Source of the DNA: Bacilli bacterium
GTDB taxonomy: Bacteria; Bacillota_I; Bacilli_A; RFN20; CAG-826
Direction: 5' to 3'
NCBI GenBank assembly: GCA_024408085.1
Contig: JAKSVH010000001.1
Location: 64,816 to 128,815, forward strand
Length of the DNA stretch: 64,000 nt
The notes beneath the pieces were generated by a model. That model saw only the letters and a program-made list of their open reading frames with translations. It was not told the origin of the DNA and did not search any database. The translations under genes and the position numbers were made by a program. Shown here piece after piece: positions 8,794 to 19,835 of this stretch. The first letter of the stretch is position 1; every line of letters begins with the position of its first letter.

Positions 8794-9789
8794 TTATTTT
8801 GCGGAGATATCACTGAAACTTGTTTTAATTGATTCTGGAAGAGAGATTCCTGAACCTGCTAAGTTTGCGGAAGAGTAAACTTTTGAGCAAGTAGAAGCAT
8901 CCATAAATTTAACTGGGAAATCAGATGGTTTCTTACCATTTTTGATTATTTCAACAGCCATTTTACCTGCTTCTTTACCAAGTTGTTTGTAATCGACTGA
9001 AATGGTGATGTGACCGCCATCTTGAAGCATACCTTCTTCGCCACAGACAACTAAAACTCCTTTGGAGTTAGCAGCTTGTTTGACATCGTTCATATGAGCT
9101 GCGATGTTATTGTCGGTTGGAACGTAGATTGCGTTAACTTGTTCTGCAAGTGCTAAAGCAGCAGCATTAATATCTGATGGACCTGACACTGCTTTTTCAA
9201 CAACTTCAACACCTGGAGCATTTTTGCTAATAATTTCTTTAACTTGATCCTTTTGGATTACAGAGTTTTCTTCACTTTGTGTATACAAAACACCAAGTTT
9301 TGATGCAGTTGGTAGAATTTGGTTGATGAGTAAAAGCTGATCAGCAATTGGTTGAGCATCGCTTGTTCCACAGACAAATCCATTAGGATTTTCTACGTTA
9401 GAAACTAAGTTTGCAGCAACTGGATCTGTAACAGCAGAGAAGAAAACTGGATTTGTGAGTCCTTTTTCAATTGATGCTGACATAAGTTGCTTTGAAGCAC
9501 CTGTGCCAAGACCAAAAGTCATGTCTTTTGTTGAAACTAAATCTTTAGCCATTGCTGTTAAGTCTGCATCACTTCCGCCTGCGTTCTTAATGTCAAAGCT
9601 ATAATCTGAACCTTCAACTAAGCCAGCTTCATTCAAAGCTTCCTTAAATCCATTTGCACAAGTTCTAAGTGCAGCGTGTTCAACTGGGAGTAAAACACCG
9701 ATTTTGCATTTAGCGTTGTCACCGCATGATGCGAGACCTGCCGCAGCAGTTGCTAAAGCAAGTAATGAGATTAATTTTGATTTTTTCAT
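8794..9789 (-). CDS. ABC importer substrate-binding lipoprotein, TrpX-like (ABC_sub_bind)
   Basis: 331 residues from the ATG at 9789, chosen because AAGGAG (9801-9806) lies 11 nt upstream and the protein then begins with a normal lipoprotein signal (MKKSKLISLLALATAAAGLASC, lipobox LASC). A TTG start at 9810 would read through the RBS. The mature part is a two-lobed binding protein of the ABC_sub_bind family (GVLLPVEHAALRTCANGFKEAL, AVTDPVAANLV). Family members have been proposed as tryptophan importers because some lie behind trp T-boxes. Here the leader instead carries Phe and Tyr codons, so an aromatic ligand other than Trp is the better guess. Confidence 0.9.
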   Translation of the reverse strand: MKKSKLISLLALATAAAGLASCGDNAKCKIGVLLPVEHAALRTCANGFKEALNEAGLVEGSDYSFDIKNAGGSDADLTAMAKDLVSTKDMTFGLGTGASKQLMSASIEKGLTNPVFFSAVTDPVAANLVSNVENPNGFVCGTSDAQPIADQLLLINQILPTASKLGVLYTQSEENSVIQKDQVKEIISKNAPGVEVVEKAVSGPSDINAAALALAEQVNAIYVPTDNNIAAHMNDVKQAANSKGVLVVCGEEGMLQDGGHITISVDYKQLGKEAGKMAVEIIKNGKKPSDFPVKFMDASTCSKVYSSANLAGSGISLPESIKTSFSDISAK

Positions 9790-9810: not shown

Positions 9811-9900
9811 AAATAAATCCCGGGAGTGAACACCGGGCTATTTTTGCTTGGTGTTCAACTTGCGTCTCCCACCAATTATTTTTACAGCAGGAAACAATTA
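9811..9900 (-). promoter_or_regulatory. Attenuator with terminator and competing antiterminator upstream of the ABC operon
   Basis: Reading the minus strand, these perfect pairings are visible: 9916-9907 with 9885-9876 (10 bp, its 5' arm inside the Tyr/Phe codons); 9875-9870 with 9853-9848 (TTGGTG/CACCAA); 9857-9850 with 9834-9827 (8 bp, TGAACACC/GGTGTTCA); and 9837-9833 with 9823-9819 (CCCGG/CCGGG) followed by ATTTATTTTT. The third and fourth share 9834-9833 and exclude each other, as antiterminator and terminator. The second blocks the third. UUUCCU at 9894-9889 can also pair with GGGAGA at 9870-9865, which would release the antiterminator strand. The direction of control is inferred. Confidence 0.75.
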
Positions 9901-9969
9901 CCTATAGTAAAAATAACCAAAGTAAAAAGCATTGATTTTAATGATATTTGAAACACAATTTTTCATCAT
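9898..9969 (-). CDS. Phe/Tyr-rich leader peptide of the ABC operon
   Basis: A 23-codon frame from ATG 9969 (or 22 from ATG 9966) to TAA at 9900-9898. AGGAAG (9979-9974) is a good RBS, 7 nt from the second ATG. The peptide ends AFYFGYFYYR: seven of eight residues at positions 15-22 are Phe or Tyr (codons TTT TAC TTT GGT TAT TTT TAC TAT), followed by Arg and stop. This codon run sits exactly where a stalled ribosome would alter the downstream alternative hairpins, as in the leader peptides of amino acid operons in proteobacteria. It contains no Trp codon. Too short for ordinary gene finders. Confidence 0.78.
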   Translation of the reverse strand: MMKNCVSNIIKINAFYFGYFYYR

Positions 9970-10083
9970 TTTGCTTCCTACCTTGCGTATATATTAACTT
10001 ATTTTAAATAAAAGTGTTAGAAAAATTGAAAATTCTGAATATTTGTAACCGCTTACTAAATTGATAGATTTTATATAATAAGG

Positions 10084-10116: not shown

Positions 10117-10548
10117 ATGGAAAAAGAGCTAAAAGAAATCAAAATTAACTGGTTCAAAGTCAGCTGCATCTATAATCAACTTGCTGACAGACATTTGATC
10201 AATAATTTTTCAATGAGAGTATTTAATTTGATCAATATTTTTGAAAAAGATTGCACTCAAAAGAAGATTGTTGAGATGACTGGTGCACCAAAACAATCAG
10301 TTAATAATGTTATTCAAGATTTCTTAGATAAAGAATACATTACTTTAGTAACTAATCCAAAAGATAAACGTTATAAACTCATTAAGCTTACTAGAAAAGG
10401 TAAGACTTTATATCATTCAACACTTGAGAAAATTGAAGAAGCCGAATTAAAGGTTTTAAGCAATTTTAGCGAAGAAGAAATTAAGGCTTACATTGATTTT
10501 TCTGCTAAATATAACGAATTATTAGAGAAAGAAACCGAGGAAATTTAA
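10117..10548 (+). CDS. MarR-family transcriptional regulator
   Basis: 143 residues. The winged helix-turn-helix is at about 45-105 (TQKKIVEMTGAPKQSVNNVIQDFLDKEYITLVTNPKDKRYKLIKLTRKG); the DKR of the wing is the family signature. Helices on both sides would form the dimer interface. The gene is divergent from the ABC importer and sits one base before a secreted C11 protease, with which it is surely cotranscribed. It may control the protease, itself, or the importer; no perfect palindrome stands out between the divergent genes. The ligand cannot be guessed. Confidence 0.88.
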   Translation: MEKELKEIKINWFKVSCIYNQLADRHLINNFSMRVFNLINIFEKDCTQKKIVEMTGAPKQSVNNVIQDFLDKEYITLVTNPKDKRYKLIKLTRKGKTLYHSTLEKIEEAELKVLSNFSEEEIKAYIDFSAKYNELLEKETEEI

Positions 10549-10549
10549 T

Positions 10550-13500
10550 ATGAAGAAGTTTGCAAAAGTTTTTATATTATTAACACCATTGGTTTTGTCA
10601 TCATGTGATTTTGGAAATGTTCAAATTGCAAGACAATTGAGCATTTCTGACCAAAAAGCTTTTGATTATCATATTGGTGAAGTCTTTGATGACTATGTCA
10701 ACGCTGGTGGTCTTAAAGTAAATGTTATCATGTCCGATGATTCTGTTTTATTAGCAGAAAAAGGAACTTTCACATATCAAATTACCGAGAAAAACAATCC
10801 AGATAAAACAATTGACGGAACAAAACCATTCACAACTGCTGGTAACTACATTGTTACTGTTTCTAAAGAAAAATTGCCATCTGTAAGTGAAAATATTACA
10901 GTTTTAGAAAAAGAAGATCCTCAACCAACAACCGTAACTTTATCATCAATTTCAGCTTCAGATTATACAAAAGAAGTTTATCAAAACGAAGCTTATACTT
11001 TTGACGGAAAAGTTACTGCAAAATATAGCGACGGATCTACAAAAGACGTTACTAGCAAAGCGACAATTGGAACAATTTCAACCACAACTTTAGGTGATAA
11101 ATCTCTCTCAATTTCATACACTGAAGATAACATCACTAAAACAACAAGTGCAAAAATTACAGTTATCGAAAAAGGTGTAGATCCAGTTGTTAAAACTTTG
11201 TCAAAAATTGATGCATCTGGTTATAAAACCAGTGTTTATCAAAATGAGACTTATACATTTAACGGAATTGTCACTGCAACTTATAGCGATACAACAACCG
11301 CAAATGTAACCAGTAAAGCATCAATTGGCACAATTTCAACATCAACTACAGGAACTAAAACTGCAACAATTTCATATACAGAAAATGGTGTAACAAAAAC
11401 AACAAATTATTCAGTTAACGTTGAAGAAAAAGAGCCTTCATATGAAACAATTACGCCAGAACAAGCAATTAGCATTTGCGAAGATTTGGGTAGTGCAGTT
11501 GTAAGCGATAAAGAATACTATGTAAAAGGTATTGCGGAAGATGTTACTTATAGTAAACAATACGATAATTACTCAGGTAAATTCCAAGATTCAAATTTCT
11601 ATTTCACACAAACAAACTCAAATAATCTTGTTTCAAGTACTAGTGATGTTGATGGAAAAGAAGTAATAATTCGCGGTTATTTAGAACTTTACAATAGTAA
11701 ATATCAATTACCATATTTACCTGCAAGTTCTTCTCCAACAGGATCTGCATATCACTCGAAATTTATTGAAGTAAAAGATGTTCCTGTTGAAAAAATCTTA
11801 GTTACAAACGTTTCATTTACACTTTCTAGTAAAACAATGAATGTCGGTGATACATTTACTGTCAGTTATACAGTTTCACCAAGTAATGCTACTAACAAAA
11901 GCTTATCTTGGTCATCAAGCAACACAACAGTTGCATCTGTTTCAAATGGTGTTGTTACTGCAAAAGCTGCAGGCACAACAACAATTACTGCAAAGTCAAC
12001 TGATGGAAGCAATAAGCAAGCTTCTTTGACTGTTACCGTAACAAAAGTAGATGTTGCAGTTACTGATATTTCACTTGACAAATCCACACTTTCGATTCAA
12101 AAAGGTAAAACAGCTCAATTAACAGCCACAATTTCTCCATCTAATGCAACTGACAAGGAAGTGACTTGGAGTGGCTCAGCAAACGGAATAAACGTTAATT
12201 CTAGCGGTTTAGTTTCTGTTTCATCAACTGCAACGGTTGGAACAAAAGCAACAATTGTTGCTACAGCACACGGAAATATAGCTAAAACTGCCTCTTGTGT
12301 TGTTACTGTAACTGAAGCTCCTGTTGTTGAAAAAGATGCTTGGACAATCATGATTTATATGTGTGGTTCAACTCTTGAATATGATCCAGAGTATCCAACA
12401 GATGGAGGCTATGCATCTGAAGATATTGTTGAAATTTTAAAATCTAATGCAATTCCAGATGATGTAAACATTCTTATTGAAACTGGTGGTGCAGGCGATT
12501 GGGAATTAGCAAGCAAATACATTACAAATGGAAAGACATCAATTTCATCAAGTAAATTACAAAGATGGGAAATTGTAAGTAAGAAAGATAGCTCATCAAA
12601 TAATAAACTTTCTTTTGTAAAAGAATTAAATACAAATCAATTGTCATCTCAAAGTTCATTTGAAAGTTTCCTGGAATGGGGATTGACTGATTATCCAGCA
12701 GAAAACACTGGTGTCATTATGTGGAATCATGGTGGAGCTTTAGGCGGTGTTTGTTATGATGAAAACTACACCTATCCATATGAATATGAGCATAAAACTT
12801 ATTATTATCCAAACAGCTTAAATTGTAGCGAAGTAGCTCAAGCAACTAAACAAGCTTTAGCAAATACTGGTGGAGATAAAATGACATTCATCGGTTATGA
12901 TGCATGTTTGATGAGTGTTGCAGACATTGCAACAGTTAATTCTGATTACTATAAATATATGGTTGCATCACAAGAAAGCGAACCGGGTTATGGTTGGGAT
13001 TACACTACATGGTTAAATAATCTTTATAATAATAAAGATAATACAACTTCAAAGATTCAAAATGTATTAGATAAAATTTGTTCATCATTCCTTACACATA
13101 ACTGTGACAATGGTGGATGTGGTGAATACGATTCATACTATCATGAATACTATTATTGCTATTCAACATTATCTGTCCTTGATCTTAGTAAAGCTGATGC
13201 ATTAGTCTCAGCATTCGAAACTTATGCAACAAATATTAAGAAAATTTCTGGTTATTACAATAAGATTAAAAACGCATTTAATAACGCGAAAAATTACGGC
13301 TTTGGTGAAGGAATATATGGGGTAGTTGACTTTGTCAAATTCCTTGAATATATGGACAAACAATTCTCATCTGTATCAAGCACGAATGTCAAGAATGTAA
13401 TTACTTCTCTAGTAATTTCAAAATACAATTGTGATGAGTATAATTACACGCCTTGCGGTGTTAACGCATTCGTTCCAGAAATTACTGATACAAGTGGTGA

Positions 13501-13594
13501 TTACGGACTTCAATGTGAGTATGAAGATTACGAAGGAGAATACGCCACAAAATTCTCAACTTGGCAAGAAATAATGCTTGCAAACTGGTATTAA
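10550..13594 (+). CDS. Secreted C11 (clostripain) protease lipoprotein with Ig-like domains
   Basis: 1014 residues. The lipoprotein signal ends LSSC at residue 19. Two Ig-like repeats of the kind with KYSDGSTKDVT lie at about 127-205 and 214-293, an OB-fold-like region at about 300-395, two BIG2 domains at about 418-500 and 502-590, then the C11 cysteine peptidase from WTIMIYMCGSTLEYD (about 598) to the end. The catalytic pair is His727 (WNHGG) and Cys786 (YDACLM). Known C11 enzymes cleave after Arg or Lys and are often self-processed. It should act at the cell surface, held by lipid and spaced out by the Ig-like stalk. Cotranscribed with the MarR gene. Confidence 0.88.
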   Translation: MKKFAKVFILLTPLVLSSCDFGNVQIARQLSISDQKAFDYHIGEVFDDYVNAGGLKVNVIMSDDSVLLAEKGTFTYQITEKNNPDKTIDGTKPFTTAGNYIVTVSKEKLPSVSENITVLEKEDPQPTTVTLSSISASDYTKEVYQNEAYTFDGKVTAKYSDGSTKDVTSKATIGTISTTTLGDKSLSISYTEDNITKTTSAKITVIEKGVDPVVKTLSKIDASGYKTSVYQNETYTFNGIVTATYSDTTTANVTSKASIGTISTSTTGTKTATISYTENGVTKTTNYSVNVEEKEPSYETITPEQAISICEDLGSAVVSDKEYYVKGIAEDVTYSKQYDNYSGKFQDSNFYFTQTNSNNLVSSTSDVDGKEVIIRGYLELYNSKYQLPYLPASSSPTGSAYHSKFIEVKDVPVEKILVTNVSFTLSSKTMNVGDTFTVSYTVSPSNATNKSLSWSSSNTTVASVSNGVVTAKAAGTTTITAKSTDGSNKQASLTVTVTKVDVAVTDISLDKSTLSIQKGKTAQLTATISPSNATDKEVTWSGSANGINVNSSGLVSVSSTATVGTKATIVATAHGNIAKTASCVVTVTEAPVVEKDAWTIMIYMCGSTLEYDPEYPTDGGYASEDIVEILKSNAIPDDVNILIETGGAGDWELASKYITNGKTSISSSKLQRWEIVSKKDSSSNNKLSFVKELNTNQLSSQSSFESFLEWGLTDYPAENTGVIMWNHGGALGGVCYDENYTYPYEYEHKTYYYPNSLNCSEVAQATKQALANTGGDKMTFIGYDACLMSVADIATVNSDYYKYMVASQESEPGYGWDYTTWLNNLYNNKDNTTSKIQNVLDKICSSFLTHNCDNGGCGEYDSYYHEYYYCYSTLSVLDLSKADALVSAFETYATNIKKISGYYNKIKNAFNNAKNYGFGEGIYGVVDFVKFLEYMDKQFSSVSSTNVKNVITSLVISKYNCDEYNYTPCGVNAFVPEITDTSGDYGLQCEYEDYEGEYATKFSTWQEIMLANWY

Positions 13595-13781: not shown

Positions 13782-16700
13782 ATGAAAAATAGAAATAAAT
13801 TATTTACATCAATCGCTATATTAGGGTCTGCTATTTTTGGAATGGTCCTTACTGCAGGAACTGGAGTTTTTGAAGCATTAGGTTTATTCAATAACACCAG
13901 AACAACTTCTTCAAATGCAACAAATTTAATTTTAAATAAAGATAACGCTTATTCTAGCGGATCATCTCAAACAATAAATACAACATTTGGTAAAAATCCA
14001 ATAGTTTTTGATTATAGTAGCGGCTGTAGCTCTTTTTCTAACGCGCACGTTAATATGGCTGATGGTGCTACTGTTGGCAACTACTGGAAAACAAATGATA
14101 AAAACTCAGGCATTAATTGGAACAATAAGTTAACTTCCATTGAATCAATTAAGCCTGTTTTTAATGCCGAATCAGGTGCTTCTTTACAATTTAGAGCGTC
14201 TTATGACGGAAAAACTTCAGGTGCTTGGGGTAATTTTGCTCCACTTACTAGTAACACATCATTCACACTTGCTTCTAATCCTTATTACATTGAATTAAAA
14301 GCAGTAGGTGGATCAGTTTCCCTTACTTCTTGCGAGATTTGTTTTAGTTGTATTGTAAATACATCTGCTAGCGGAACACCAGTATACGAAACTAAAGCAA
14401 CAGTAAATGATGGAACCAAAAAGACATATTCAGTTGATGACTCATTTGATAACTTAATCGGTGGTTCCACGAAGAAAAGAAGTGTTACAATTTCTGATTC
14501 CTTTGAAGTCGTTGAGACTTTGTCTAATGGAACAACAAGAAAATTAAATAAAGGAGAATTTAATTACAAAGTAAATAATCCATCTGGAACACAAATCGAT
14601 ACAAGCAAAGCATTTGGAACAACTGGCACATATACAGCATTTATAAAGGTTGGAAGCTTAGCAGAAGTTGCATATGAATTTAGTGTTGAAGAAAGATTAG
14701 TTGAAGAAATTGTAATTCCTGCAACAAAATCAATGAATACTGGTACTAGTGGTTCTATTTCGGTTACATCCATTAGTCCAAGCAATGCACATAATAAAAC
14801 TATTACATGGTCATCAAGTGATACAAGTGTTGCAACAATTAATTCAAGTACTGGTGCAATTAGTGCATTAAAAGCTGGTACAACAACAATTAAAGCAACT
14901 GCAACCGATGTTGGTGGCGTTGCTTCAAATGGATGCACATTAACTGTTACAGACATTTCTGTCACATCGGTTACATTGGATAAAGATTCATTATTACTTT
15001 ACACAGATGATAATGATGTTACATTAACAGCAACCATTCTCCCGGAAGACGCTACAGTTAAAAATATTAATTGGTCTTCTAATAATACAAGTGTTGTAAC
15101 CGTCGAAAATGGCGTTGTGCATCCTATTGGCGTTGGTACTGCAGTAATTACTGCAACCTCTGGTAGTGCATCCGATACATGTGCTGTTGAAGTAAAAGAT
15201 GCCAGCGAAAGACCTGTTATTGTGAATGTTCCAATTACTGGAGGAACGAATGGTAGTGAATGTACCGTAAATGGCAATGACGGCATTAAAATAGGAACTT
15301 CAAGTAAAAGTGGCGATTTTACTATTACTGTACCTTCTGGTGCCACAAAACTATATGTTTATATTGCTGCTTGGAATGGAAGCACTAATACTGAAATGAG
15401 TATTACTCCTGCATCTAAAGTTTCTAATTCCACATTATCTATTTCTGCAAATAATGGAATTGCAGGTAATTCACCTTTCACCCTTTCTGAAGGTTCTGAT
15501 GAAGAAGATTATTTGTTCGAAATCTCATTAGTTGGAATAACAACCGAAACTACTTTAACATTTGCTTCTGGAAAACGTTGTGTAGCATGGGGTGCTAGTT
15601 GCTTATCTTCTGGTGGAAGTTCTTCTACTGTTGAACTTACTAGCATTTCTATATCAGACTATAAAACACAATTTACTGTTGGTGAATCATTCTCTTTTGG
15701 CGGAACTGTAACTGCTAATTACAACAATGGTGAGCATGTTAATGTAACTGATAGCGCAACTTTCGGTGGTTATGACAAAGATACTATTGGAAATCAAACC
15801 ATTACAGTCTCGTATGGAGGCAAAACAATAACATATATTATTACTGTAAATTCTGTGGTACATCCTCAAAGTGTTTCATTGTCTCCTGAAACTGCAACAA
15901 TAAAAGTTGGCGAAGATATTACTTTAACTGCAACTGTAAATCCTAGCAATTCATCAAATAAAAACGTTACTTGGTCATCTAATAAACCAGAAATTGCTAC
16001 AGTAAATAATGGAATTGTTACAGGTGTTTCCAAAGGAACTGCAACAATCACAGTTTCAACTGTTGATGGAAATAAAACAGATACTTGCGAAATTACTGTT
16101 CAAGGAAGTAGTACTCCAGCATCTGGTGATATTATTATTGATACTTCTGAATTAGCTGGATATAGCGATAATGCAACCGCTACCTACACTGGTTCAGATA
16201 ATAACAATTACACTTTCAACGTTTCCAATGTTGGTAGTTTTGGTTCTGGTGTTCAATTTAAAGCATCTTGTGGATTTGTGTCCAATACAACTGCTTTGTC
16301 AATAATGTCTATTGAACTTGTAACTCAGAACAACAAAGATTTTGATGGTGTTTTATATTGGGGGTCCTCTATGAACCCATCAGGTAATAATGTTGATGTT
16401 GAAGATGGCAATACATATACAAATCCTGGACAGTATACATATTTTAAGTTGCTTAAAGACAGTTCTGGTGCAGGTTATCTTAAACAAATAATTATTCATT
16501 TGGGATCTTTTGAACCAACTAATCCAGAAGGCATCTCAATTCCATCAACGACATCAATTGGCGTTGGACAAAAAACAACGTTAGATGTCACATATTACCC
16601 ATCTTATTGTAACCAAAACAAAGGCGTCACCTGGTCTATTAGTGAAACTAATCCAAGCGGATGTGCAACCATTAATACATTAACTGGCGAAATTACAGGC

Positions 16701-18074
16701 GTTGCACCAGGCACAGCTAAAGTCACTGCAACATCTACATTTGATAGTTCCTTTAAATCTTCTTGCGTTGTTACAATTACTGAAGTTCAAAAAGATGCAT
16801 GGACAATTATGATTTACATGTGTGGTTCTACACTAGAATACGATAGTACTGCAACCACAAAGAAAAAAGGTTTTGCCACTAGTGACTTAAAGCAGATGCT
16901 AAATGTCTCTTTACCAGATGATGTGAATGTTATTATTGAAACTGGCGGGGTTGATGGTGAATGGTCATTGGGATCATCATATTTCGATACTTCATTGCCT
17001 ACTGCACAAAGAAAAATTTCAAACACTAATTTGCAACGTTGGGAAATCAAAAATCAAAAATTATCACTGATAAGTAATTTGAGTACAAATGAAATGTCCA
17101 AGCAAAGTGAAGTACAAAGTTTCCTTGAATGGGGCATTAATGATTATCCAGCAGAAAATACTGGTGTTATTTTCTGGAACCATGGTGGTGGAATTGGTGG
17201 TGTTTGTTCTGATGAAAACTATTTAGAGTCATATGAATATGAAGGTGAAACATATTATTATAGTAATAATTTAAATTGCGAAGAAATTGCTAGAGCTTCA
17301 AAAGCTGCATTAGATAGTACCGGAGCAGATAAATTTACATGGATTGGTTATGATGCATGTTTAATGGGTGTTGCTGATTTAGCTACTGTTAATGCAGATT
17401 ATTACGATTATATGGTAGCATCTCAGGAAACAGAACCTGGATCTGGATGGGATTACAATTCTTTCTTTACATCATTAATCAAAAATAAGGAAAATAGTAA
17501 AAATAATATAGAACTTATTCTTGATGAAATATGCACATCTTTTATCGATGAAAATTGTTCTCATGGAGATTGTGGACTTTATGACAGATATTATGAGGAG
17601 TACTACTATTGTTACTCAACATTAGCAGTATATGATTTGTCAAAAGCTTCTAATTTAATTAACGCATTCAATGCATACGCAGAGAATTTAAATATTTCTA
17701 ATACAAACGGTTATAAAAAGATTAAAAATGCATACACAAATTGTTATTCCTATGGCGAAGATTCTGATGGATCTCTTTACGGAAATGGTGATTTTATTGA
17801 CTTCTTGGATGAAATGGATAAGCAATTTACAACTGTTTCAAGTGCAAATGTAAGATCTGCTATCAAAGATATTGTTATATCTAATCATTATTGCCCATAT
17901 TATACTCAAAATAAAAATTTAATACCTTGCGGAATTTGTGTTTTTGTTCCAGAGGCTTTAAGAAATGGTGATAGTGATTACGGATTACAATGTTATAAAG
18001 AAGATTATGAAGGAACGTATGCAACTAAATTTAGTGCATGGCAAACCATTGTGAGAAAATATGGAACCTGGTAA
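13782..18074 (+). CDS. Large secreted C11 (clostripain) protease with multiple Ig-like domains
   Basis: 1430 residues, a paralogue of the gene at 10550. The N-terminal hydrophobic segment (about 8-30) is a signal or anchor without a lipobox. Then come a beta-sandwich-like region (about 40-190), BIG2 domains at about 307-390 and 393-470, a second sandwich region (about 480-610), an Ig-like repeat (615-690), a further BIG2 (693-775), a third sandwich region (785-905), a BIG2 (915-1000) and the C11 peptidase (1004-1430). Catalytic His1134 is in WNHGG and Cys1193 in YDACLM. The two peptidase domains match closely; the stalks differ in order and number. Extracellular proteolysis after basic residues is expected from the family. 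Confidence 0.88.
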   Translation: MKNRNKLFTSIAILGSAIFGMVLTAGTGVFEALGLFNNTRTTSSNATNLILNKDNAYSSGSSQTINTTFGKNPIVFDYSSGCSSFSNAHVNMADGATVGNYWKTNDKNSGINWNNKLTSIESIKPVFNAESGASLQFRASYDGKTSGAWGNFAPLTSNTSFTLASNPYYIELKAVGGSVSLTSCEICFSCIVNTSASGTPVYETKATVNDGTKKTYSVDDSFDNLIGGSTKKRSVTISDSFEVVETLSNGTTRKLNKGEFNYKVNNPSGTQIDTSKAFGTTGTYTAFIKVGSLAEVAYEFSVEERLVEEIVIPATKSMNTGTSGSISVTSISPSNAHNKTITWSSSDTSVATINSSTGAISALKAGTTTIKATATDVGGVASNGCTLTVTDISVTSVTLDKDSLLLYTDDNDVTLTATILPEDATVKNINWSSNNTSVVTVENGVVHPIGVGTAVITATSGSASDTCAVEVKDASERPVIVNVPITGGTNGSECTVNGNDGIKIGTSSKSGDFTITVPSGATKLYVYIAAWNGSTNTEMSITPASKVSNSTLSISANNGIAGNSPFTLSEGSDEEDYLFEISLVGITTETTLTFASGKRCVAWGASCLSSGGSSSTVELTSISISDYKTQFTVGESFSFGGTVTANYNNGEHVNVTDSATFGGYDKDTIGNQTITVSYGGKTITYIITVNSVVHPQSVSLSPETATIKVGEDITLTATVNPSNSSNKNVTWSSNKPEIATVNNGIVTGVSKGTATITVSTVDGNKTDTCEITVQGSSTPASGDIIIDTSELAGYSDNATATYTGSDNNNYTFNVSNVGSFGSGVQFKASCGFVSNTTALSIMSIELVTQNNKDFDGVLYWGSSMNPSGNNVDVEDGNTYTNPGQYTYFKLLKDSSGAGYLKQIIIHLGSFEPTNPEGISIPSTTSIGVGQKTTLDVTYYPSYCNQNKGVTWSISETNPSGCATINTLTGEITGVAPGTAKVTATSTFDSSFKSSCVVTITEVQKDAWTIMIYMCGSTLEYDSTATTKKKGFATSDLKQMLNVSLPDDVNVIIETGGVDGEWSLGSSYFDTSLPTAQRKISNTNLQRWEIKNQKLSLISNLSTNEMSKQSEVQSFLEWGINDYPAENTGVIFWNHGGGIGGVCSDENYLESYEYEGETYYYSNNLNCEEIARASKAALDSTGADKFTWIGYDACLMGVADLATVNADYYDYMVASQETEPGSGWDYNSFFTSLIKNKENSKNNIELILDEICTSFIDENCSHGDCGLYDRYYEEYYYCYSTLAVYDLSKASNLINAFNAYAENLNISNTNGYKKIKNAYTNCYSYGEDSDGSLYGNGDFIDFLDEMDKQFTTVSSANVRSAIKDIVISNHYCPYYTQNKNLIPCGICVFVPEALRNGDSDYGLQCYKEDYEGTYATKFSAWQTIVRKYGTW

Positions 18075-19653: not shown

Positions 19654-19682
19654 TTTACAAAGTGAATTAGTAATGTTATATT
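19654..19682 (+). promoter_or_regulatory. Promoter of the T-box leader
   Basis: TTTACA (19654-19659), 17 nt, TATATT (19677-19682). Start expected near 19689, giving a leader of about 145 nt to the terminator. Confidence 0.6.
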
Positions 19683-19688
19683 ATTTAC

Positions 19689-19835
19689 GCTCCAATAAGG
19701 GAAATTTGCCACTTCCTTAGGAGTCGATGATGAATCGACGTAGCTCTGCGTTAAAGAGTATTAATTAAGTGCAATACAAAGTATTGAATTAGGATGGTAC
19801 CACGACTAAAGTCGCTCCTAAGAAATACTTTTTTA
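19689..19835 (+). ncRNA. Compact T-box leader, probably tRNA-Ala responsive
   Basis: The T-box core AGGATGGTACCACG is at 19791-19804; its TGGT can pair with the ACCA end of tRNA, fitting discriminator A as in tRNA-Ala. The terminator is TTAGGA (19789-19794)/TCCTAA (19816-19821) enclosing CGACT/AGTCG, then a T tract at 19829-19835. Upstream hairpins are CTCC..TAAGG/CCTTA..GGAG (19690-19724), GTCGAT/ATCGAC (19723-19739), CTCT/AGAG and CAATAC/GTATTG (19772-19786). The first hairpin is far shorter than a usual Stem I. I could not place the specifier with certainty; GCC at 19708 is a candidate Ala codon. The nearest synthetase downstream is alaS, one gene away. Confidence 0.82.

Follow-up and report, generated by a model that had tools for sequence, protein, structure and literature searches.

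A predicted tyrosine-responsive leader-peptide attenuator before an aromatic amino acid importer operon in Bacilli

Described leader attenuators and the window locus

T-boxes are the textbook means of controlling amino acid genes in Gram-positive bacteria, and the his operon attenuator of enteric bacteria, with its segments A-F, has the trp and pheA attenuators as simpler relatives. Candidate His leader-peptide attenuators have been described in the Erysipelotrichales, the Peptostreptococcaceae and the B. cereus group (PMC9413887), and the hisS/hisZ leaders have been put forward as predicted attenuators in Gram-positive bacteria (PMC2965389). In addition, the uORFC-13-1 motif is found upstream of aroF in Acholeplasma, its 24 representatives coming from one genus and environmental DNA (PMC8632094). 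An earlier note on the DNA studied here had called ribosome-mediated attenuation rare in Firmicutes; uncommon it is, but it has already been described there, His attenuators in Erysipelotrichales included (PMC9413887).

The window considered here is a 64,000-nucleotide stretch of DNA from a small-genome Bacilli bacterium, in which a short leader frame stands before an ABC-importer operon on the minus strand. Like the enteric his attenuator, this element has a leader rich in the controlling amino acid and an alternating chain of hairpins running to a terminator, and stalling would lead to antitermination. Unlike it, the window element is predicted to sense Tyr (with Phe) and to control an importer rather than biosynthesis; the 5' arm of its helix P1 sits in the loop of helix P0 and is not paired within P0, and it has no Rfam match. 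The His leaders share predicted ribosome-mediated attenuation in Gram-positives in place of T-boxes, but they carry His codons and precede biosynthesis or hisS/hisZ genes (PMC9413887, PMC2965389). uORFC-13-1 likewise has an upstream frame with at least one Phe codon beside a terminator, in aromatic metabolism, and differs in using Phe only, in preceding a biosynthesis gene and in having no Tyr runs, with no importer described (PMC8632094). The Leu/Ile leader of S. aureus ilv-leu is also a case of leader-peptide attenuation in a Firmicute, there with genetic support, but it concerns branched-chain amino acids and biosynthesis (PMC5794164). The trpXYZ genes of Streptococcus suis, under a Trp T-box, encode a related importer controlled by tRNA charging through a transcription terminator; that T-box binds tRNA directly and is Trp-specific, whereas the window has a translated leader and no T-box (PMC9382623). 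Neither a Tyr-sensing leader attenuator nor one on an aromatic importer was found in the open-access literature searched, outside which most subscription papers lie. The principle of attenuation is known; the amino acid, the target and the spread are new.

The leader frame and helices of the window copy

The importer operon comprises a substrate-binding lipoprotein (PF04392; 8794-9789), a permease (PF02653; 7796-8779) and an ATPase (PF00005; 6746-7795), all on the minus strand. As the earlier note had described, a 23-codon frame led by a ribosome binding site (RBS) and ending AFYFGYFYYR lies 5' of this operon, between that RBS and a terminator (9898-9969, minus strand). The frame, MMKNCVSNIIKINAFYFGYFYYR*, was delimited from the sequence, the conserved leaders of relatives and a frame test, and reads ATG ATG AAA AAT TGT GTT TCA AAT ATC ATT AAA ATC AAT GCT TTT TAC TTT GGT TAT TTT TAC TAT AGG TAA. 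Seven of its last ten codons specify Phe or Tyr (peptide end ...NAFYFGYFYYR*). The Shine-Dalgarno-like AGGAAG (9979-9974) is better spaced for the second ATG at 9966, an alternative start, than for that at 9969. Shortly 5' of this RBS a promoter-like -10 (TTAATATA) can be picked out by eye, as can TATAAT-like boxes at about the same distance in several relatives; a simple promoter scan gave no match on the minus strand. At the far end, the T-rich tract of the terminator (TTTATTTTT, 9817-9809) stops just 5' of the lipoprotein RBS (9807-9801), with the lipoprotein ATG at 9789. The folding energy of the leader RNA lies 5.6 SD below that of shuffles, and the fold pairs the RBS region with GCUUUUUACUUUG. 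Rfam searches at gathering and permissive thresholds gave no match at the leader locus, known amino-acid leader families included, and neither did the T-box riboswitch (RF00230; stem I with specifier, UGGN in the antiterminator).

Other features of the locus were recorded in passing. The stretch from the SGGQ signature to Walker B, about 20 residues as a rule, is unusually long in the importer ATPase (112 residues) and is also long in 8 of 8 relatives examined (96-123 residues). On the plus strand, 10550-13594 and 13782-18074 encode two large adjoining exported proteins with, by eye, Ig-like repeats and a common C-terminal domain (DAWTIMIYMCGSTLEYD...); they apparently resemble clostripain-type peptidases and form a tandem duplication.

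Five helices, P0-P4, can be drawn on the leader RNA (all coordinates on the minus strand). P0 is the perfect 10-bp hairpin reported earlier, whose 5' arm TTATTTTTAC (9916-9907, from the fold and pair counts) does lie inside the Tyr/Phe codons and pairs in the fold with GTAAAAATAA (9885-9876). P1, identified by helix-chain search and folds, joins GTTTCCT (9895-9889), 3 nt past the stop codon, to GGGAGAC (9870-9864). P2 crosses P1 and joins TTGGTG (9875-9870) to CACCAA (9853-9848), which sequesters the 5' arm of the antiterminator. The antiterminator P3 is formed by TGAACACC (9857-9850) and GGTGTTCA (9834-9827), and the terminator P4 by CCCGG (9837-9833) and CCGGG (9823-9819). The earlier picture of mutually exclusive hairpins ending in a terminator stands as to the chain and its coordinates, with five helices in place of four, and its proposed wiring, 9894-9889 with 9870-9865 releasing 9857-9850, is the one that covaries in relatives.

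A mutually exclusive antiterminator and intrinsic terminator are found before the first structural gene, codons for the regulating amino acid are overrepresented in the short RBS-led frame, and a stalled and a terminating ribosome would free and mask different segments. RNA of the window copy from 9901 on folds as P1 with P3, with no terminator. With a ribosome at the stop codon the equilibrium fold is mixed (P4 probability 0.53), and when the T tract is included the minimum is another long hairpin; because this state is ambiguous at equilibrium, co-transcriptional folding must be assumed to decide.

Conservation across the family and beyond

Homologous lipoprotein genes are present in 22 of the 24 genus genomes, and close orthologues of the lipoprotein (45-55% identical) are preceded by leaders ending ...SYFYFGYFYFR, ...NFYFYYYYM and ...SFYFYYYFFSYNS. 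By covariance model, one leader copy per genome was found in 10 of the 24 genus genomes and in two other genera of its family, with a PF04392-type lipoprotein downstream of every copy whose next gene was read. Because stem sequence drifts, the single covariance model (R1) matched only 12 of 279 genomes of the order; the remaining family loci were found through lipoprotein homology, after which their upstream regions were inspected. A related-locus search in named genomes returned only one distant match.

An ATG frame in which six or more of ten residues are aromatic precedes 74 of the 93 family lipoprotein homologues whose upstream region is complete, and L088 provides a weaker 75th. Such frames arose in 55 of 3,700 shuffled upstream regions (1.5%) and on none of 74 antisense strands. 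The clusters contain TAT 259 times, TAC 130, TTT 139, TTC 49 and TGG 1, Phe thus making up 188 of the 578 aromatic codons and Trp appearing once. Each cluster has 3-7 Tyr codons, never none, and 0-5 Phe codons, with three leaders having no Phe in the cluster. Based on this, the earlier suggestion of Phe/Tyr charging as the signal is supported by the leaders and can be refined, Tyr being constant and Phe optional. Per ten codons, Tyr appears 5.26 times in the leader frame and 0.01 and 0.04 times in the other two, so the composition is no by-product of U-rich RNA and the coding is selected. Shine-Dalgarno matches are more frequent at leader ATGs than at other ATGs of the same regions, 12 of the 74 leaders having none. 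The family leaders span 13-32 residues, place F and Y in any order and conserve nothing outside F/Y; neither an invariant arrest motif nor a set distance to any one residue was seen among them.

Eighteen homologues with a complete upstream region are leaderless, 13 of them with the acidic specificity residue discussed below. L013-L016, L018, L019 and L021-L023 are leaderless paralogues from the genus with Glu at that position; several such paralogues have in common a short GGTGAA/TTCACC hairpin 5' of the gene, and an Rfam scan of L013, L018 and L021 gave no match.

The helix chain was searched for as P1-P2-P3, with neighbours mutually exclusive, in each leader with a recognisable terminator (n=71). 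The P1-P4 chain is complete in 70 of the 71 loci, and in 64 none of 30 dinucleotide shuffles, made outside the terminator, scores as high. The 5' arms of P1 vary widely (GTTTCC, AATCAAT, ATAGCA, GATTTTC, TTTATCT), each being complemented downstream. In two alignable subfamilies, 84-95% of cells are paired and cells with double changes exceed those in shuffles, a signal that collapses when the register is slid. These compensatory changes fall chiefly in P3 and P4. In P1, and in the P0 stem CCAAGA:TCTTGG, changes are mostly one-sided; P1 varies little within subfamilies, and its covariation comes mainly from comparison between them. P2 is partly misaligned in subfamily A4. Both features that the earlier note wished to see compared among relatives, the aromatic codons and the alternative stems, are kept across many genera.

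An open search for P1 placed the start of its 5' arm at a median of 10 nt past the last aromatic codon (IQR 9-11), counted from the first base of the last such codon in the cluster. This spacing falls within 7-13 nt in 61 of 70 loci, compared with 14% in shuffles, and in 34 of 41 distinct peptide tails. The position of the arm relative to the stop codon is variable (-17 to +6): in leaders ending ...YYYPRGNQ P1 lies over the stop codon, and in those ending ...YFYFR just past it. In the window copy and L012 the strongest candidate for P1 in the open search was P0, which puts this distance (D) at -14; measured to the GTTTCC arm it is 10-11. A ribosome with that codon in its A site would cover about 12 nt, and the constant distance to the last aromatic codon is compatible with stalling on Tyr codons and would otherwise be hard to explain.

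Moving the modelled ribosome edge from mid-cluster to the stop codon raises the mean probability of P4 from 0.50 to 0.80 and lowers that of the antiterminator from 0.47 to 0.16. A shift above 0.2 in the expected direction is seen at 32 loci, against 2 in the opposite direction, and the mean probability of P1 is only 0.20 even mid-stall. The equilibrium folds, as models, indicate the direction of the switch and not clean switching.

Beyond the family, 60 homologues from other families of the class include Tyr-rich leaders with the same chain in f23, f12, f16 and f25; the leader of L147 (f14) is probably spurious. Leaders of f23 are mostly Tyr runs, two f25 homologues have Tyr (UAC) T-boxes, and the f20 genes have no Tyr-rich leader, several of them having T-boxes. 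The earlier note named T-boxes or TRAP as the usual control of amino acid genes in Firmicutes, and the window genome itself has T-boxes before ileS, thrS, valS and pheS, with a weak, sub-threshold match (49.6 bits) at 19654-19822 (plus strand), 5' of a putative secreted protein and alaS. In genome G001, the leader region of L012 (positions 126-364 of its upstream region) is 92% identical to that of the window (222 of 242 columns) on an operon whose lipoprotein and permease are only 31-32% identical, which indicates that leader and transporter are exchangeable. It seems reasonably likely that this class of Tyr-sensing attenuator is old in several small-genome families, with stems that drift freely, a conserved ribosome-scale spacing and the behaviour of a portable cassette, and that T-box and leader replace each other on one transporter family.

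Importer substrate, proposed mechanism and alternatives

The lipoprotein scores 229 bits against the TrpX equivalog (NF041285), under the curated cut-off of 390. Its nearest solved structures are 6HNI, 3LFT and 3LKV, which hold Tyr (as CD0873), Trp and Phe respectively (PMC6816091). C. difficile CD0873 (6HNI), a Tyr binder, is the closest of these, albeit a distant homologue (E 5e-41). In that protein Glu263 reads the Tyr hydroxyl and Tyr279 excludes Trp (PMC6816091), and the window lipoprotein keeps both Glu and Tyr at these positions. Among leader-bearing family lipoproteins the Glu263 position is Glu in 62 of 75 and Asp in 13 of 75, and the five family paralogues with Ala or Val there are all leaderless. 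T-boxes with UGG (Trp) specifiers precede three of these five and two V-type f23 paralogues; the T-boxes of Glu proteins elsewhere carry UAC (Tyr) or UUC (Phe), the specifiers being read by eye from alignments. In these sequences, whose counts include related members, an acidic residue (Glu or Asp) accompanies Tyr/Phe control, and Ala or Val accompanies Trp control. Exceptions occur among distant homologues, where the alignments are less sure: L173 (Thr, Tyr leader) and L153 (Phe T-box, aligning with Cys). As Glu is also found in proteins under Phe T-boxes, it does not separate Tyr from Phe. The importer therefore most likely carries Tyr and/or Phe, and not Trp, on the basis of the specificity residue and the T-box specifiers of relatives, in line with what had been proposed from the window. 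Chorismate synthase is missing from 23 of the 24 genus genomes, the window genome included, many of these genomes being incomplete; G011, the sole genus genome with it, is without the lipoprotein.

We consider the element to be, with a probability of roughly 0.9, a ribosome-read transcription attenuator that responds mainly to Tyr-tRNA charging and to a lesser degree to Phe, controlling an importer of Tyr and/or Phe. Comparison establishes a leader biased toward Tyr and Phe, helices that exclude one another and covary, and the spacing; stalling, termination, a role for P0 and the transported substrate are inferred. When charged Tyr or Phe tRNA is scarce, a ribosome would stall in the aromatic codons, covering the P0 5' arm and leaving the next segment free. 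P1 could then form and occupy the region of the P2 5' arm, allowing the antiterminator P3 to form and block P4, so that the importer would be transcribed. When the tRNAs are charged, a ribosome at the stop codon would mask the P1 5' arm, P2 would capture the 5' arm of P3, and P4 would form and end transcription. With no ribosome, P0 would close over the P1 5' arm and the switch would tend to off. The importer would probably be made only under ribosomal tyrosine shortage, and would bring Tyr and/or Phe into a cell unable to make them.

The relative weight of the two amino acids is the point on which another reading has most to offer, namely that Phe weighs as heavily as Tyr in the switch, or more so, or is its only signal. 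Phe codons, in the proportion given above, occur in nearly all leaders, and Phe T-boxes precede f20 homologues that share the Glu residue. The leaders with no Phe in the cluster speak against it, none having fewer than three Tyr, as do the Tyr runs of f23 and the UAC T-boxes of f25; we consider such a Phe switch unlikely, if worth keeping in mind. Alternatively, the nascent aromatic peptide might itself arrest the ribosome in the manner of TnaC or Erm leaders, with a small molecule or drug rather than tRNA charging as the signal. A leader peptide with exclusive hairpins would look alike in that case, and aromatic runs could slow elongation, but the conservation of aromatic composition only, in peptides of free length and F/Y order with no fixed arrest motif or distance, makes this very improbable.

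More doubtful still is control of the operon by the adjacent, divergent MarR gene (10117-10548), which would leave the leader little weight: none of the homologous importers fetched has a MarR relative nearby, whereas the leader is present. MarR control as a conserved feature was rejected on the same observation. The least probable reading takes the conserved, translated-looking frame for a functional hydrophobic micropeptide and the hairpins for an ordinary intergenic terminator, since residues outside F/Y are not conserved, the P1 arm follows the last aromatic codon and not the gene end, and P2 and P3 are conserved though of no use to a plain terminator.

With ribosome-read attenuation responding mainly to Tyr-tRNA charging as the preferred reading, a lineage in which T-boxes occur, pheS being among the genes that carry one, would be using a translated Tyr leader for an aromatic importer, and would do so family-wide. 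Within a transporter family about which little is known, the element would mark importers as carriers of Tyr/Phe, not Trp, in genomes mostly without aromatic biosynthesis. Its natural variants, constant in spacing and free in stem sequence, are also well suited to working out the rules that govern such attenuation.
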